DNA of 64,000 nucleotides from Acetobacter musti (GTDB taxonomy: Bacteria; Pseudomonadota; Alphaproteobacteria; Acetobacterales; Acetobacteraceae), in the NCBI RefSeq assembly GCF_011516835.1, contig NZ_WOTB01000011.1, positions 1 to 64,000 on the forward strand. The letters run 5' to 3'. The notes beneath the pieces are model-generated. The model was not told where the DNA came from. It saw only the letters and a list, made by a program, of their open reading frames with translations, and did not search any database. Of this stretch, positions 33,018 through 40,372 are shown one piece after another (within the stretch, counting starts at the first letter, position 1; every line of letters begins with the position of its first letter). The position numbers were made by a program, and so were the translations under genes.

Positions 33018-35213
33018 TCAGTCGCTCAGCGCCCGCAGCAGACTTTCGGAAAACCGTTCCGGCGAAAACTCCGCCCGGATCAGGCGCCTGCCCTGATCCG
33101 AACGCTGCCGCCAGAGCGCATCATCCCGGATCAGGCTGATCAGGCCGGCGGCGAAATCTTCCGCCGTATCCGTGACGGTGCAGACGGCGCCGATCCCAGT
33201 CACCCCTTCCGCGCCAGTCGGCGTCGTGACAAGCGGCAGACCGTGATGCAATGCCTCCAGCACCTTGTTCTTCACCCCGGCTCCGAAGCGCAGCGGCACG
33301 GCCGCAACACGCGCGGCGGCATAAAGACGCTCAAGCTCCGCCTCGCTGACCGAACCGGTCACGACAGTCCGCTCATCCGCCAGCGCAAGAACGGCGGGAG
33401 CCGGATCCGACCCCGCGAGAACAAGCCGGACATCCGGCACATGCGTCCGGACCAGAGGCATGATCGTGTCTTTCAGCCAGAGCGCCGCGTCGACATTCGG
33501 CGGATGTGCGAATCCGCCAACAAAGAGAACGGTCGTTCCTTCGGTCACGGCTCTGGGTTCATGATCGGGAGCGAAGCAGAACGGCACGACAGTGCGTGCC
33601 GGCGCGCCGGGAACAAGCTCCCTGACAAGGTCGGCCTCATAACCGGACAGATAAATGACAGAGCTGAACTGCCGCCAGAGCCACGTTTCGAGACGCTGCA
33701 TGGACTGCGCCTCATGGCGCACGCCCTCGTCCCCCGTCACCTCCGCCTCACGCATCATGCGCAGGAAATGAATGTCATGGCCGTAATAGGACCGCCGGGC
33801 GGCAGTGCCGGCCACGACAGCCGCCAGAAATTCCCGAGCAACAACCGGACGCATGATCATGACATGATCGAGATCCCCGCCATTCCGCTCCAGCCATTCC
33901 GGAAAAGACAGCGGGCAGGTGTGATCCAGCACCTCGACGCCGGCGCGTTCGGAAATATGCGCCTGTCCCGTGCGGCCACGATCCAGAGGCCAGAACTTCA
34001 CCAGCCAGCCCGCCGCCACCAGAGCGCGGATGACACAGAGTGTCGCGCGCGATCCGGCATCCCGGTCCGGTTCGGGAACATAATGGTCGATAATCAGGAT
34101 GGTGCGCCGGTGGCGGGCATGCGCGCCGGCCCGGAGCATATGAACGCCCGGCGGATAGTGGTCCCTCTCCAGAACAGTTTTCCATCGCCGGAACATGATA
34201 TCCCGGTTGCGCGCCTGGTAAGCCTTGACGCCGCTGCTCTCGTCAGTGCCGTGCGAGACGCCTTCATGGTGAATGACAACCGAATCCGGCTCGAACACCA
34301 CCCGGTATCCGGCGGCGCGCACACGAAAAGCCAGATCCGTATCTTCGTAATAAGCCGGAGCAAAGAGTTCATCGAACCCGCCAAGCGACCGGAAAAGCGC
34401 GCCCGGAATGGCGATCGAAGCTCCGGAAATATAATCGACCTCCCGCCGCCAGCGATAGGCAGCCCGGTCCGGATCGGAATCACCGCGCCCGAAATTCATG
34501 CCGGATGCGTCGGCCCAGACAATCCCGCCCGCTTCCTGCAGAGTGCCGTCCGCAAACAACAGTTTCGATCCTGTCAGCCCAATGGTCGGATCTGAGGCAA
34601 GGAGATCCACAAGCGCGTCAAAAGCGCCGGGCAGAACCTCCGTGTCGTTGTTAAGAAAATGCAGATACGTGCCTGCTGCCGCGCCGGCCGCATCATTACA
34701 GTTCCGCAGAAAACCGAGATTGGTCTGCCGTTCCAGAAAGATGAGCCCCGGAATCGTCGCGAGCACGGCAATATCGGGATCGCCCGAGGCATCCTCCGCG
34801 ACAAGAACCTCCCAGGCGCAGGATGGCGGGTTCAGCATGATCGAGCGCAGACAGCGCAACAGCACCGGAACCTGTCCATAACTCGGAATGATGATGCTGA
34901 GCACCGGATCGGCATGACGGGGAAACTGCAGAAGACCGGCATTCTCAGCGCCATCTGGCCCAACAGCCACCGGATCTGGCGACGATGCCGCCGGCGCCCC
35001 GTCATCCGTGTTCCGCGCGGAGACAGGAGCACGGCTGAAGCGGGCCGCGACGCCCCGCAGCCTGCGCATCTGCCCGACCGCCACACGCGCCGGATAACTC
35101 AGACGCCAGAACGTGCTGCGCTCATAGGCTTCGATGCGCCGGCGCAGATCCGCGATCGTCGCCTCAGGATCAGTGCCGGAAGTGTCCGGATTGAAGTCGG
35201 AAGAAACAGTCAC
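33018..35213 (-). CDS. bifunctional glycosyltransferase, GT2 + GT4
   Basis: A 731-residue cytoplasmic enzyme for surface glycan synthesis. An N-terminal region with a short coiled coil (DLRRRIEAYERSTFWRLSYP) precedes a GT2 domain (about 95-330: LSIIIPSYGQVPVLLRCL, VLVAEDASGDPD, HFLNNDTEVLPGAFDAL, GASIAIPGALFRSLGGFDE, YYEDTDLAFRVRAAGYRV). A GT4-like domain follows (about 370-725), with LFVGGFAHPPNVDAALWLKD and VPLRFGAGVKNKVLEALHHG. The order matches O-antigen or rhamnan-type bifunctional transferases. It is alone, without sugar-nucleotide genes. Confidence 0.88.
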   Translation of the reverse strand: MTVSSDFNPDTSGTDPEATIADLRRRIEAYERSTFWRLSYPARVAVGQMRRLRGVAARFSRAPVSARNTDDGAPAASSPDPVAVGPDGAENAGLLQFPRHADPVLSIIIPSYGQVPVLLRCLRSIMLNPPSCAWEVLVAEDASGDPDIAVLATIPGLIFLERQTNLGFLRNCNDAAGAAAGTYLHFLNNDTEVLPGAFDALVDLLASDPTIGLTGSKLLFADGTLQEAGGIVWADASGMNFGRGDSDPDRAAYRWRREVDYISGASIAIPGALFRSLGGFDELFAPAYYEDTDLAFRVRAAGYRVVFEPDSVVIHHEGVSHGTDESSGVKAYQARNRDIMFRRWKTVLERDHYPPGVHMLRAGAHARHRRTILIIDHYVPEPDRDAGSRATLCVIRALVAAGWLVKFWPLDRGRTGQAHISERAGVEVLDHTCPLSFPEWLERNGGDLDHVMIMRPVVAREFLAAVVAGTAARRSYYGHDIHFLRMMREAEVTGDEGVRHEAQSMQRLETWLWRQFSSVIYLSGYEADLVRELVPGAPARTVVPFCFAPDHEPRAVTEGTTVLFVGGFAHPPNVDAALWLKDTIMPLVRTHVPDVRLVLAGSDPAPAVLALADERTVVTGSVSEAELERLYAAARVAAVPLRFGAGVKNKVLEALHHGLPLVTTPTGAEGVTGIGAVCTVTDTAEDFAAGLISLIRDDALWRQRSDQGRRLIRAEFSPERFSESLLRALSD

Positions 35214-35375: not shown

Positions 35376-35789
35376 TCAGGCCGTGCCGGCGCGTCCGTGA
35401 CAGTGAGTGATGAGTTCCAGTTCGATCTTCACATCGGGAACATCGAAATCCTCGACGACCATCACCGTCGCCGCCGGGCGGTTGGCGCCCAGCGCGTTAC
35501 TGACGAACGGCGCGCACGATGTCAGCTGACCGGCGTCCTTGACGACGTAGATAACGCGCACCACGTCTTCCAGCGAAGCGCCGCGCGCGAGGAGAGCGGC
35601 GCTGCCCGCCGAGAAGGCCAGCCGGCACTGATCGGCAATCCGGGCGGGGAAACATCCGGAATGGCGGTCATATCCCCGGACCCGGCGAAGACGCAGACCT
35701 CCGCGCGCCTGCTCGCAGCAGGGCAGGATCGATTCGGTCGTCCGGGCCGGATCAGACGGATCGCGGCTGTTTCCGGCTGCTGTTTCCAT
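35376..35789 (-). CDS. Rid family protein (YjgF/YER057c/UK114)
   Basis: Small trimeric Rid-fold protein, likely a deaminase of reactive enamine/imines or a divergent Rid relative. CRLAFSAGSAALLARGASLEDVVRVIYVVKDAGQL, NRPAATVMVVEDFDVPDVKIELELI follow the family pattern, including the Arg before PAAT. The start ATG at 35789 follows GGAAGGGG; 137 residues. The N-terminal 40 residues are unusual, with several cysteines (ILPCC, SGC) and little family resemblance. Not clearly canonical RidA, so no symbol is given. Confidence 0.75.
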   Translation of the reverse strand: METAAGNSRDPSDPARTTESILPCCEQARGGLRLRRVRGYDRHSGCFPARIADQCRLAFSAGSAALLARGASLEDVVRVIYVVKDAGQLTSCAPFVSNALGANRPAATVMVVEDFDVPDVKIELELITHCHGRAGTA

Positions 35790-35906
35790 GGCTGGTCGCC
35801 CCTTCCGGAAGGTCACGGAATTGTCATAATTCCCGCCGGTCGAAAATGAAAGATGTTTCTCTGCGGTAATGCTTCAGGGTCGTAACGGTCTGGTGAGGAG
35901 TCTCCG

Positions 35907-36365
35907 ATGTCACTTACGCGACTTCATGCCTGCTGCGCCGCGCGCGATGAGGCCGGCGTGCTGATTTCCGGCGTTGCGGGAGCCGGAAAATCCGACCTGC
36001 TGCTCCGGCTGATCGGGCGCGGTTACAGGCTGGTGGCGGATGACAGGGTGGAGCTGGAGGACGGCCTTGCCCGTGCGCCGGCCGCCCTGCGCGGGCTGAT
36101 CGAAATACGTGGATGGGGTGTTATTCGTCGCCCGTTTATCGAAGCCGTCCGGCCGGTTCTGATGGTCAGGCTGGTCAGAGCGGGCGCCGGCGTGCCGCGC
36201 CTCCCGGACTGCCGCGAGGCGCATGACCCGGAAACGGATCTGCCGGTGCTCTGGCTGGACGGCATGCTGGCCTCGGCTCCGGACAGAATCGACGCCGCTC
36301 TGGACTGCCTGACCGGCCGGGCTTTTCGTCTCCCGCAGGGGGCCATGCTGACCGGCGATGACTGA
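35907..36365 (+). CDS. hprK: short HPr kinase/phosphorylase (C-terminal domain only)
   Basis: Phosphorylates HPr on its regulatory Ser. The 152-residue protein holds the P-loop GVAGAGKS (22-29), RLVADDRVELED and the loop RGLIEIRGWGVIRRPF. Alphaproteobacterial HprK proteins lack the N-terminal domain of the Gram-positive enzyme, as here. It begins a cluster with rapZ, EIIA, HPr and EI. The ATG follows GGTGAGGAG. Confidence 0.9.
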   Translation: MSLTRLHACCAARDEAGVLISGVAGAGKSDLLLRLIGRGYRLVADDRVELEDGLARAPAALRGLIEIRGWGVIRRPFIEAVRPVLMVRLVRAGAGVPRLPDCREAHDPETDLPVLWLDGMLASAPDRIDAALDCLTGRAFRLPQGAMLTGDD

Positions 36366-36563
36366 TACAGACAAAAGAGTGTCAAAGGTATCCGGATCTG
36401 ATATATTATGTCCAAACATTACGGTATGCGTTATCGTGGCGCGGCCTCATGACAGGGTGCCGTATGCGGTTTGTCTCTGAAACCCGGTGAGTCATGCGGC
36501 TGCCGGTCCGGCTCAGACCGGGTTCCCAGTTTTTGTTCCTCGTGCAGAGTGCCTGTCCGGTTC

Positions 36564-37649
36564 ATGGTGATACCTCAGACTGCTGACGATACACTGACGC
36601 CACGCCATATTCTGCTCGTTACCGGTCTGTCCGGTGCCGGTAAATCCTCGATTCTCAGGATACTCGAGGATCTCGGGCATGAGGTGATCGATAACCCGCC
36701 TCTCGGCATGCTTGACGAGATCGTAACCCGCGGCGACCGGCCGATTGCGATCGGTGTCGATTCACGGACCCGCGGCTTTGACGCGTCAGCCGTTCTGGCC
36801 GCCATCGCGCGGTTGCGGCTCAATCCGCATCTGCGGACGGAACTGCTCTATGCCACCGCGGATAAAGGGACGCTGCTGCGACGGTATACGGCAACCCGTC
36901 GCAGGCATCCTCTCGCGCCGCATGGCAGCGTCAAGGAAGGGATTGAAGCCGAAACCCGGCTGACCGCCGAACTGCGCGGCTGCGCCGATATGGTGATCGA
37001 CACATCGGACCTGTCGGCCCCGGAACTGAGACGTCTGGTCGAAACCCGCTTCGGAACATGGCACGGCGGTGCCGATGAAGGTCTTACGGTAGTGCTCATG
37101 TCCTTCGCCTTTCCGGCAGGACTGCCCCGCGAGGCGGACATGGTTTTTGATGCCCGTTTCCTGCGTAATCCTTATTATGATCCGGATCTGGCCCCCATGA
37201 CAGGGCTGGACCGGCCGGTCTCCGCCTACGTTGCCGCTGATCCCGATTACGAGCCCTTTCTGCGCCAGATCAGCGATATGCTTCATCTCGTGATCCCGCG
37301 TTTCGTCCATGAAGGAAAAAAATACGCCACCATCGCCATCGGATGTTCCGGCGGCCGGCATCGTTCGGTCACGCTGGTCGAGGCTCTGGCGGGAAAGCTC
37401 GTTGCCCCCGGGGCCAGCGGAACGGATGGTGAGTGGCCGATCGCGGTTGTGCATCGTGAACTGGCGCGGCAGGGAATTGCCGGACCCGGTGCGGCCGCCT
37501 GGCGGTGGGTCAGAAAACCATCCGAAACCGTGTCCGGGGAGCCGGTCGCGGACAGGATGAACGGGAATGATTTAAAGGTAACCGACGCGGCCGGAGAGGC
37601 CTCAGACGAAAGGAACGGGCACCTTTCAATGGTGCGGGGAGACGCATGA
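36564..37649 (+). CDS. rapZ: RapZ/YvcJ family P-loop NTPase (RNase adapter)
   Basis: Nucleotide-binding regulator; in E. coli it directs RNase E to the GlmZ small RNA. The P-loop is GLSGAGKSSIL (21-31); SRTRGFDASAV, FMSFAFP-type segment VVLMSFAFPAGLPREADMVFDARFL, and TIAIGCSGGRHRSVTLVE are family landmarks. The ATG at 36564 gives 361 residues, some 55 more than usual, with the excess in a polar C-terminal tail (about 305-361) of no known motif. Overlaps the EIIA start (ATGA). Confidence 0.92.
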   Translation: MVIPQTADDTLTPRHILLVTGLSGAGKSSILRILEDLGHEVIDNPPLGMLDEIVTRGDRPIAIGVDSRTRGFDASAVLAAIARLRLNPHLRTELLYATADKGTLLRRYTATRRRHPLAPHGSVKEGIEAETRLTAELRGCADMVIDTSDLSAPELRRLVETRFGTWHGGADEGLTVVLMSFAFPAGLPREADMVFDARFLRNPYYDPDLAPMTGLDRPVSAYVAADPDYEPFLRQISDMLHLVIPRFVHEGKKYATIAIGCSGGRHRSVTLVEALAGKLVAPGASGTDGEWPIAVVHRELARQGIAGPGAAAWRWVRKPSETVSGEPVADRMNGNDLKVTDAAGEASDERNGHLSMVRGDA

Positions 37650-38161
37650 TAGGAATTGTTCTGGTAACGCAGGGCGCACTGGGTGTGGCCCTGCGGGAGA
37701 CCATGGAGCATGTTGTCGGTCCGCAGACGCAACTCGCAACTGTCAGTGTCGGAGCGGACGACGATCTGCAGCAGCGCCGGCTTGAACTCGAGGCGCGGAT
37801 CGCCGAGGTCGACCATGGCGACGGCGTGATGCTGGTCACGGACATGTTCGGCAGCACGCCCTCCAATCTCGCCGTCGCCATGACGCTGCCCGGCCGCATT
37901 GAGGTCCTCGGCGGAGCCAACCTGCCAATGCTGGTCAAGCTCGCCCAGATGCGCGAGACGCATACGCTGGGCGAATGCACGGTCCTGGCCGAGGAGGCCG
38001 CGCGGAAATACATCAACTGCGCGTCACACCTTCCGCAGCAATGTCTCGACGGCGCCCGTCGCTGCGCCGAGGAAGCCGCCAGCCGGATTCACACCTTCCG
38101 CCCCCAGGTCGCCGGTTCTCCGGAACTGCCGGTCATCGCGCCACGCCGGATCGCCGGCTGA
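37646..38161 (+). CDS. mannose-family PTS EIIA-like protein with Gln at the phospho-His position
   Basis: EIIA(Man) fold: IGIVLVTQGALG at the N-terminus, EHVVGPQTQL, LVTDMFGSTPSNLAVAM and GANLPMLVKLAQMR. In the family the active-site His lies in VTHG; here the codon is CAG (bases 37670-37672), giving Q9, so phosphotransfer from HPr through this site should be impossible. The rest is well preserved, arguing for a maintained role, perhaps regulatory. 171 residues, with a ~25-residue tail longer than typical. Overlaps rapZ; HPr starts immediately after its stop. Confidence 0.88.
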   Translation: MIGIVLVTQGALGVALRETMEHVVGPQTQLATVSVGADDDLQQRRLELEARIAEVDHGDGVMLVTDMFGSTPSNLAVAMTLPGRIEVLGGANLPMLVKLAQMRETHTLGECTVLAEEAARKYINCASHLPQQCLDGARRCAEEAASRIHTFRPQVAGSPELPVIAPRRIAG

Positions 38162-38461
38162 ATGAACGCTCTGGCACCAGCCCGGCCGGAAGAACGCGAG
38201 CGGCCGGTCACAATCGTCAACGCGAAAGGTCTGCATGCCCGCGCCTCGGCGAAATTCGTGTCCGTGGCCGAGCAGTGGGACGCCGATATCAGCGTGGCCT
38301 ACGGCGAGGAGACGGTTCCGGCCTGCTCCATCATGGGGCTTATGATGCTGGGCGCCGGCGCCGGCGCCACAATCACGCTTCGGGCCACGGGCGAACAGGC
38401 CGAAGAGGCCCTGTCCGCCCTGGCCACGCTTGTCGAATCGGGTTTCGGCGAAGGCGAATAG
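38162..38461 (+). CDS. ptsH: phosphocarrier protein HPr
   Basis: Small PTS phosphocarrier. H25 in NAKGLHARASAKFV is the EI-dependent phosphorylation site and S56 in CSIMGLMMLGA is the HprK site; both are intact. 99 residues, with a ~10-residue N-terminal extension. The ATG abuts the TGA of the EIIA-like gene. Since no EIIB or EIIC is present in the cluster, the role is probably signalling rather than sugar transport. Confidence 0.95.
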   Translation: MNALAPARPEERERPVTIVNAKGLHARASAKFVSVAEQWDADISVAYGEETVPACSIMGLMMLGAGAGATITLRATGEQAEEALSALATLVESGFGEGE

Positions 38462-38554
38462 GATAAAATGGCGGATACAGGCGCCGGCCGGCCCGGAACC
38501 TGTAACCCGAACCCACGGACCGGTACCGCCACGGGAACTGCAGGCTGAAGACCC

Positions 38555-40372
38555 ATGAGAGAGGCAGGACGCGGCGCATCGGAACGGAACGGGTCTGAGC
38601 GGCTGTTTGAAGGCGAACCGGTCGGTCCGGGTTTCGCAATCGGTCCCGCGTTCATCACGGGGGAAACCCCGGTGCCCGAACCCGAAATCCGTCAGAGCAC
38701 CCGGACACCGGACCAGGAGCGTGACCGGTTCAACGATGCTGTCGGGCGGTCAATCTCGCAGCTGACAAAACTTCGCGGCAGACTGGCCCTTCTCCCCGAG
38801 GAAAGTCAGCTCGAGATCAGTCCCCTGCTGGACGTCTATCAGCGGATGCTCGGTCCCTCGCGGCTGCAGCGAGGCGTCATGGCCCGGATCGATGACGGGC
38901 TGACCGCGGAAGCCGCCGTGCATGATGAGACAGAAGCACTGGCTCTGGCCATGCTTGCCCCGCATGACGGCAAAAAACCTGTCGGAGAAGATGCCGCCGC
39001 CGCGGAGCGGCGCGCCGGCGAATTCCGTGAAGTCGGCCGCCGCCTGATCCACAATCTGACCAGAACTCCGTTTCTGGCTCTCAGACACCTTCCGGACGGC
39101 GCCGTTCTGGTCGCGGAAACACTCCGCCCCTCGGACGCCGCACTGATCGATCCGTCCCGTGTCGCTGCCGTCGTGCTGGAAGGGGGGGGCACCACCGGGC
39201 ATACAGCCATCATGCTCCGCGCACTGGGCATCCCGTCAGTCCTGGCAGTCCACGGTCTCCTGGACGGGCTGGCCGACGGAATGGCACTGGTGGTAGACGG
39301 CGACACCGGACAGGTCATTCGCGACCCCGACGCCAGAACCGTCAGACAGGCGCGCCGGCATGTCGCAGCCTATGCCCGGGAGCGACAGGAGCTTGGCCGC
39401 CTGAGACGGCTGTCCTCGCGCATGGCCAGCGGAGAAAAAATCCAGCTTCAGGCAAATCTCGAACTTCCGGGGGAACTGCCACTCATCGCCCAGTCCGGCG
39501 CCGCCGGAATAGGACTTCTGCGCACCGAATTTCTGTTTATCAATGCCGAAACCCTTCCTGACGAGGCCACCCAGTACGAAGTTTATTCCGGCGTTGTCTC
39601 CGCCATGGGATCCGACCCCACAACGATCAGAGTGCTCGACTGGGGTGGCGAAAAACAGAGTGATGCCCTCGCACAGGTCGGTTTTTCAGGCGACGGTGAG
39701 GATGAAAACCCGGCTCTGGGCCTGCGCGGCATCCGCCTGCTTCTGCGCCATCCCGCCCTGCTGGAAGCACAGTTCGCCGCGATCCTGAGGGCCGCGGCGA
39801 AGGGATCGGTGCAGATTCTGCTGCCCATGGTCACGCTGGCCGGAGAAATCGTCGTCGCGCGTGAAATCTACGAGCGCGTGGCGCGCCGTCTTAAAAGAAA
39901 AGGGATCGAAATCGGCGACCCGCTGCCCCCGCTCGGCGCAATGATCGAAACGCCGGCCGCCGCCCTGATGGCCGGGACCCTGGCCCGTCATGTCGATTTT
40001 CTCGCAATCGGCACCAACGACCTAACCATGTACACGCTCGCCGCCGACAGAGCTTCCGCGGAAGTGGCATCGCTCTACGATCCGCTGCATCCGGCAGTCC
40101 TGACAATGATTTCAGGTGTGGTCACGGCGGCCCTTCACGAGAGAAAACCGGTTTCCCTGTGCGGTGAAATCGCGGGCGATCCACGCATTACGCCGCTGCT
40201 GATCGGTCTCGGCCTCAGGTCCCTGTCGATGACAGCCTCGGCCGTGCCGCGCGTGAAACAGGTCGTTCGCTCCTCCCGTTACGAGGACTGTCACCGCCTT
40301 GCCCGGCGCGTTCTGGCGGAAACGGAAAAAGAAGATATCAGACGACTGCTTGAGGAATTCCGCGAGAATTAA
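38555..40372 (+). CDS. ptsI: phosphoenolpyruvate-protein phosphotransferase (PTS enzyme I)
   Basis: Transfers phosphate from PEP to HPr. The N-terminal domain starts GEPVGPGFAIGPAF; the phosphohistidine is H216 in GGGTTGHTAIMLR; the PEP-binding part has GIGLLRTEFLF, LDWGGEKQ (usual RTLDxGGDK is altered), FLAIGTNDLTMYTLAADR and SLCGEIAGDP with the catalytic Cys. No GAF domain, so this is PtsI rather than PtsP. 605 residues, with ~14 extra at the N-terminus. Ninety-three bases downstream of ptsH; an R1 repeat follows the stop at once. Confidence 0.95.
   Translation: MREAGRGASERNGSERLFEGEPVGPGFAIGPAFITGETPVPEPEIRQSTRTPDQERDRFNDAVGRSISQLTKLRGRLALLPEESQLEISPLLDVYQRMLGPSRLQRGVMARIDDGLTAEAAVHDETEALALAMLAPHDGKKPVGEDAAAAERRAGEFREVGRRLIHNLTRTPFLALRHLPDGAVLVAETLRPSDAALIDPSRVAAVVLEGGGTTGHTAIMLRALGIPSVLAVHGLLDGLADGMALVVDGDTGQVIRDPDARTVRQARRHVAAYARERQELGRLRRLSSRMASGEKIQLQANLELPGELPLIAQSGAAGIGLLRTEFLFINAETLPDEATQYEVYSGVVSAMGSDPTTIRVLDWGGEKQSDALAQVGFSGDGEDENPALGLRGIRLLLRHPALLEAQFAAILRAAAKGSVQILLPMVTLAGEIVVAREIYERVARRLKRKGIEIGDPLPPLGAMIETPAAALMAGTLARHVDFLAIGTNDLTMYTLAADRASAEVASLYDPLHPAVLTMISGVVTAALHERKPVSLCGEIAGDPRITPLLIGLGLRSLSMTASAVPRVKQVVRSSRYEDCHRLARRVLAETEKEDIRRLLEEFREN

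Follow-up and report, generated by a model that had tools for sequence, protein, structure and literature searches.

The prevailing view of regulatory PTS chains in alphaproteobacteria is that signalling proceeds through phosphorylation of the EIIA proteins at their end. What, then, becomes of such a chain when the terminal EIIA carries glutamine in place of the phosphorylatable histidine? This question is raised by a gene cluster of Acetobacter musti located in a 64,000-nt stretch of contig NZ_WOTB01000011.1 (assembly GCF_011516835.1), referred to here as the window. The original prediction, made from the DNA letters, held that codon 9 of an EIIA(Man)-like gene reads CAG amid an otherwise intact cascade, so that the phosphate would stop at HPr or the EIIA would act as a constitutive signalling subunit.

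The cluster (window 35907-40372) comprises hprK, rapZ-like, EIIA(Man)-like, HPr and EI genes, all on the + strand (Table 1). Because it unites hprK with genes for an EIIA(Man)-like protein, HPr and EI, it belongs to the alphaproteobacterial regulatory PTS clusters. The rapZ-like gene located between hprK and the EIIA gene had gone unnamed in the original prediction. For this gene we judge the in-frame ATG at 36564 to be a more probable start than the TTG. It runs into the start codon of EIIA (ATGA overlap), and the HPr start immediately follows the EIIA stop. This overlap and the adjoining stop and start codons suggest coupled translation, and the products are probably made together. All five genes, rapZ included, are also present at the 13 other Acetobacter loci. 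In rhizobia, a chvI/chvG pair is located upstream of hprK, according to the accessible part of PMC3665714. Such a pair does not accompany hprK here, as the upstream neighbours match other families (Table 1). A promoter scan returned two promoter-like sites as compared to 1.0 expected and is given no weight here.

Table 1. Positions of the PTS cluster genes, key codons and upstream neighbours in the window.
Feature	Position	Strand	Evidence
ORF further out	33018..35213		glycosyltransferase families
Divergent ORF	35376..35816		Ribonuc_L-PSP, PF01042 (29.0 bits, cut-off 27.3)
hprK, short alphaproteobacterial-type HPr kinase, 152 aa	35907..36365	+	PF07475 (54.1 bits, cut-off 33.3)
HprK Trp70 codon	36114..36116	+	alignment
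rapZ-like gene, 392 aa from TTG	36471..37649	+	PF03668, PF22740
171-aa EIIA(Man)-like protein, Gln9 (proposed pseudo-EIIA)	37646..38161	+	PF03610 (E 2.4e-21)
EIIA codon 9, CAG (Gln); CAC or CAT (His) in relatives	37670..37672	+	sequence, alignments
EIIA Asp66 codon, GAC, retained	37841..37843	+	invariant in alignments A1 and A3
HPr (ptsH), 99 aa	38162..38461	+	PF00381 (97.1 bits)
HPr His25 codon	38234..38236	+	
HPr Ser56 codon	38327..38329	+	
Enzyme I (ptsI), 605 aa	38555..40372	+	PF05524, PF00391, PF02896
EI His216 codon	39200..39202	+	

The remainder of the chain is intact, as had been claimed. HprK retains its P-loop (GVAGAGKS), HPr retains His25 and Ser56, and EI retains His216 within GGTTGHTAI. 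The active-site His of EI is present in 36/36 aligned EI sequences, that is in 14 from Acetobacter and 22 from relatives.

The EIIA open reading frame starts with MIGIVLVTQG, placing Gln at residue 9. Its assignment to the EIIA(Man) superfamily follows from a PF03610 score of 76.5 bits as compared to the curated cut-off of 21.4. A moderately confident AlphaFold2 model (11 sequences, mean pLDDT 67.5, poor C-terminal tail) matches 3lfh, 3ipr, 2jzn and 1pdo with a Foldseek probability of 1.00, and the IIA domain of E. coli EIIAB(Man) has the same fold (1pdo, TM 0.84 by target length). In the alignment to the E. coli chain 1vrc, position 9 coincides with the active-site residue His10, which in E. 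coli accepts phosphate and hands it to EIIB. Thus, the predicted Gln codon is confirmed at the phospho-His position, both in the sequence and in the alignment, and A. musti differs from E. coli precisely at this residue. The 2jzn chain has Glu at the aligned active-site position, which we take to reflect an engineered form. Glutamine offers no site for a phosphohistidine and is closer to unphosphorylated His than to a phosphomimic. The remaining pocket features expected of a phosphate-accepting EIIA are in place: Asp66 and the TPxN loop (Thr71, Pro72, Asn74) are invariant in alignments A1 (21 sequences) and A3 (11 sequences), Asp66 being the position of the family's catalytic active-site Asp. 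Past the Pfam domain, residues 129-140 form a conserved C-terminal extension with two Cys (LP..CL.GARRC), which is common to near relatives with His9 as well. Position 9 further corresponds to His9 of the Brucella orthologue, the predicted phospho-site there according to the part of PMC2937029 available.

The substitution proved to be a property of the lineage. The EIIA gene is present in 14 of the 49 Acetobacter genomes searched, and all 14 encode Gln9 (CAG in 11, CAA in 3). Outside the genus, His9 was found in each of the 139 genomes whose residue 9 was read and Gln9 in none; of these, 18 belong to other families of the class and 121 to the family of Acetobacter itself. In the family search, 344/397 genomes matched, and residue 9 was read in a sample of these in which every one of the 91 other genera of the family with a genuine match is represented by one genome or more. 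One match (G133, E 4.6e-4) was excluded as non-EIIA, since it spans residues 27-92 only, at 35% identity. Two genomes of one family genus (loci L041 and L047, genus g80) have Phe or Cys at the usual Gly10 (THF, THC) and keep the His. In a further relative (L225, G148:C1:1665600-1666400) two matches in different reading frames make up the EIIA, owing to either a frameshift or a fault in the assembly. A tree of 36 EI sequences, 22 of them from relatives and 14 from Acetobacter, unites the Gln9 cascades in a single group (SH-aLRT 100, quick method), and the replacement of His9 by Gln requires one change on it. A sequencing or assembly error at codon 9 is refuted by these data, as Gln9 occurs in 14/14 genomes, in two synonymous codons and with ten separate public records among them; we regard its probability as negligible.

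Could Gln9 instead mark an EIIA that has lost its function, at the onset of a loss of the entire cascade as in the other 35 Acetobacter genomes? The absence of the native cascade from 35/49 Acetobacter genomes would fit such early decay. However, EIIA evolves as slowly as EI. Among the Acetobacter sequences the median pairwise dN/dS is 0.152 for EIIA (0.099 for residues 1-140) and 0.146 for EI, and in nine His9 relatives the values are 0.388 and 0.398, respectively. That is, EIIA tracks EI in both groups, and this comparison is what counts, dS being near saturation and the absolute values rough. For HPr, HprK and rapZ, the Acetobacter medians are 0.174, 0.223 and 0.141, respectively; short extracted sequences were dropped, which left 11/14 Acetobacter genomes for rapZ, and 5/9 relatives were used for this gene because the other four have no rapZ match at the locus. 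In addition, Gln was held across a fourfold-site tree of length 9.9 (14 Acetobacter tips), and a synonymous CAG/CAA change is seen at codon 9 itself. In simulations of a neutral codon, all 14 tips carried Gln in 0/20,000 runs at full or half tree scale, in 0.2-0.5% at quarter scale and in 8-11% at one-tenth scale, so that the simulation says nothing if the tree length is overestimated tenfold. A neutral codon would thus rarely remain Gln in all 14 genomes. The invariance of Asp66 and TPxN likewise speaks against decay, and so does the finding that no Acetobacter genome has separate EI and HPr without EIIA. Decay of EIIA is therefore rejected as the reason for Gln9, and we consider early decay of this kind very improbable.

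The distribution of the cascade within the genus bears on whether EIIA still depends on its partners. EIIA, HPr, EI and HprK co-occur in the same 14/49 Acetobacter genomes, and the set is absent from the other 35, which shows that members of the genus can do without the cascade. Matches to the HPr and EI families occur in 15/49 genomes and matches to HprK in 14/49. The extra genome (G019) has its EIIA (PF00359), HPr and EI matches inside one 852-aa open frame (L228, G019:C180:3000-7500), by its look a fructose-type fusion and perhaps acquired. On an ilvD tree, the 14 cascade genomes are located on one side of a branch with modest support (bootstrap/SH-aLRT 91/77), so that retention or loss of the cascade may represent few independent events, perhaps one.

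The main rival to an EIIA that works by docking is a constitutive, HPr-independent signal. In this case EIIA(Gln9) would always be in the dephospho state and act on its target regardless of HPr, whereas EI, HPr and HprK would serve a separate output and be kept by operon linkage only. This reading overlaps with the preferred one in its first half, and the likelihoods assigned to the two are not exclusive. The resemblance of Gln to unphosphorylated rather than phosphorylated His is in its favour, and an EIIA locked in the dephospho form could give a fixed TCA state, as may be compared with ManX/PtsN of Rhizobium leguminosarum in the part of the review PMC13104625 at hand. However, a strictly constitutive EIIA would not need EI and HPr, yet the four proteins occur together in 14 genomes and are jointly absent from 35 (the fused system of G019 apart). 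This co-retention speaks for an EIIA that remains coupled to the relay, probably through docking, and extra fixed changes beside the His of HPr, described below, hint at a coupled interface. The constitutive subunit of the original prediction goes beyond what these data show, and we judge an HPr-independent signal unlikely, though worth keeping in sight.

Alternatively, phosphotransfer might continue via another EIIA residue or to another protein. The kept active-site residues of EI and HPr would be in line with this, and EIIA contains a His22 that is invariant in A1 and A3. However, His22 is also present in the His9 proteins of A1 and is hence not a replacement. Within residues 1-140, no new invariant His or Cys accompanies Gln9 in Acetobacter as compared to 136 distinct His9 sequences, and a replacement nucleophile was therefore rejected. 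As for a second EIIA that does the job, a PF03610 search of the A. musti genome gave one match above the cut-off and another below it (E 0.416, 12.6 bits), and PF00359 (EIIANtr) gave none. The search covered these two EIIA families, which leaves some room for another recipient; across the 49 Acetobacter genomes, in turn, the PF00359 match in G019 is the only one. Another EIIA residue could take the phosphate, but on this evidence we consider a moved acceptor rather improbable.

We then asked which other changes are fixed in the Acetobacter cascade, a diagnostic position being one whose residue is shared by all Acetobacter sequences and does not occur in relatives (14 Acetobacter sequences against 22; for rapZ, 11 against 18). 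EIIA has seven such changes in 145 columns (9, 64, 89, 91, 119, 139 and 142). HPr has two in 99 columns, Lys22 and Ser29, both at most four residues away from His25. EI has one in 599, HprK two in 142 (position 70, within EIRGWG, and position 129) and rapZ five in 308, among them Met32, probably its actual start. The density in EIIA exceeds that in the other four proteins combined (7/145 vs 10/1148, Fisher p 0.0014). As EIIA was picked for Gln9, we also omitted this column (p 0.0054), and per Acetobacter-invariant column the value is 0.012; none of these tests takes phylogeny into account, and we regard them as no more than suggestive. Some of the changes may represent drift, the Acetobacter branch being long. 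As a side observation, the EIRGWG motif of HprK has Trp70 in all 14 Acetobacter genomes and Leu, Val, Met or Ile at this position in 25 relatives, which possibly alters the kinase/phosphorylase balance.

A substitution of single origin, a conserved gene and codon, a co-retained cascade and the finding of no further EIIA in the two families searched are best explained by a lineage-fixed pseudo-EIIA. In the branch of Acetobacter that keeps the regulatory PTS, His9 would have been replaced once by Gln. Selection would then have maintained the Gln, with the other pocket motifs (Asp66, TPxN, NLPM) and the other cascade members (EI, HPr, HprK) preserved. Phosphate would pass from PEP to EI and on to HPr; onward transfer at the canonical EIIA site is presumably blocked, because Gln cannot carry a phosphoryl group. 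To this extent the original prediction appears sound: position 9 can hardly pass on phosphate, and the chain plausibly ends at HPr. Selection on EIIA, the kept pocket, co-retention and the changes near the His of HPr together suggest that EIIA likely still meets HPr without taking its phosphate. We infer that EIIA(Gln9) remains unphosphorylated and has a dephospho-type output, most likely exerted by binding HPr and/or its target, and that the state of HPr (His-P, Ser-P or free) decides which EIIA complex forms. That the relay stops at HPr and EIIA acts in its dephospho form, probably by docking, is in our estimation the probable course of events. A bolder version can be offered more tentatively, as an attractive possibility on which we would not insist. 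In this version, the PTS relay is read without any phosphate transfer by an EIIA comparable to a pseudokinase. Docking would be its sole means of sensing the His-P, Ser-P or free state of HPr and hence of controlling a target in central metabolism, and changes on the EIIA and HPr sides of their interface would have co-evolved. The case for docking draws on the co-retention described above and on a small number of fixed changes.

Which target might be controlled? The candidate output, control of the 2-oxoglutarate dehydrogenase/TCA branch, comes from the rhizobial and Brucella literature only. In Brucella, the EIIA(Man)-like orthologue is phosphorylated in vitro by PEP, EINtr and NPr, with His9 as the site predicted by the authors, and binds SucA; its dephospho form is proposed to inhibit 2-oxoglutarate dehydrogenase (PMC2937029, as far as accessible). 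Thus, the Brucella protein has His9 and takes phosphate, whereas Acetobacter has Gln9. In R. leguminosarum, according to the accessible text of a review (PMC13104625), TCA activity falls with phosphomimetic ManX/PtsN and rises when the flow of phosphate is blocked. The two outputs point in opposite directions, and the sign of the output in Acetobacter is therefore not predictable. The profile of the 2-oxoglutarate dehydrogenase E1 component SucA (TIGR00239) matches in 49/49 Acetobacter genomes (47 above the cut-off), that is in genomes with and without the cascade, so that the presence of SucA does not discriminate. In one cascade-bearing genome (G032, G032:C1:281662-284483) the E1 match is in two pieces, neither above the cut-off, which may reflect a frameshift, a gene that is truly split or an error.

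The PtsM/ManX systems of Brucella, Sinorhizobium and Rhizobium resemble the one studied here in the EIIA family, in the hprK-EIIA-HPr type of neighbourhood and in the terminal phosphoacceptor position (PMC2937029, PMC3665714, PMC13104625), and the accessible parts of these sources describe no PTS permease for them. They use a GAF-bearing EINtr (PtsP) together with PtsN, in contrast to the A. musti system. In a Pfam profile search at E 0.001, EI gave no GAF domain and no family besides PF05524, PF00391 and PF02896, i.e. PEP-utiliser domains only; PF05524 has one match in the genome, as checked for a separate PtsP. The system is thus not a PTSNtr, which would combine GAF-bearing PtsP with an EIIANtr of PF00359. 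Consequently, the nitrogen link of the rhizobial PTSNtr is not simply transferable, and the rewired carbon or nitrogen signalling suggested by the original prediction would be conjecture. Closer kin offer likenesses: Gluconobacter oxydans has a regulatory PTS with an Enzyme I of the EI-R type and has lost ptsP (PMC2405797, part available), and Komagataeibacter xylinus is described in the accessible part of PMC6528568 with an orphan 'fructose EIIA' and other PTS genes, and no IIB/IIC/IID; these accounts do not touch on the phosphorylation site. The relatives outside Acetobacter differ in having His9 wherever it was read.

Taken together, the EIIA family, the PTS cluster and its regulatory role were already known, and the fixed non-acceptor EIIA at the end of the chain is the apparently new part. 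Among the PMC literature matches listed, we found no His-less EIIA in acetic acid bacteria and no fixed non-acceptor EIIA at the end of a regulatory PTS chain. A lineage with such an EIIA and an intact remaining chain represents a natural separation-of-function mutant, in which the outputs of phospho-EIIA, dephospho-EIIA and HPr itself can be separated. The likely outputs in acetic acid bacteria, which would include TCA flux and acetate overoxidation, are industrially relevant.
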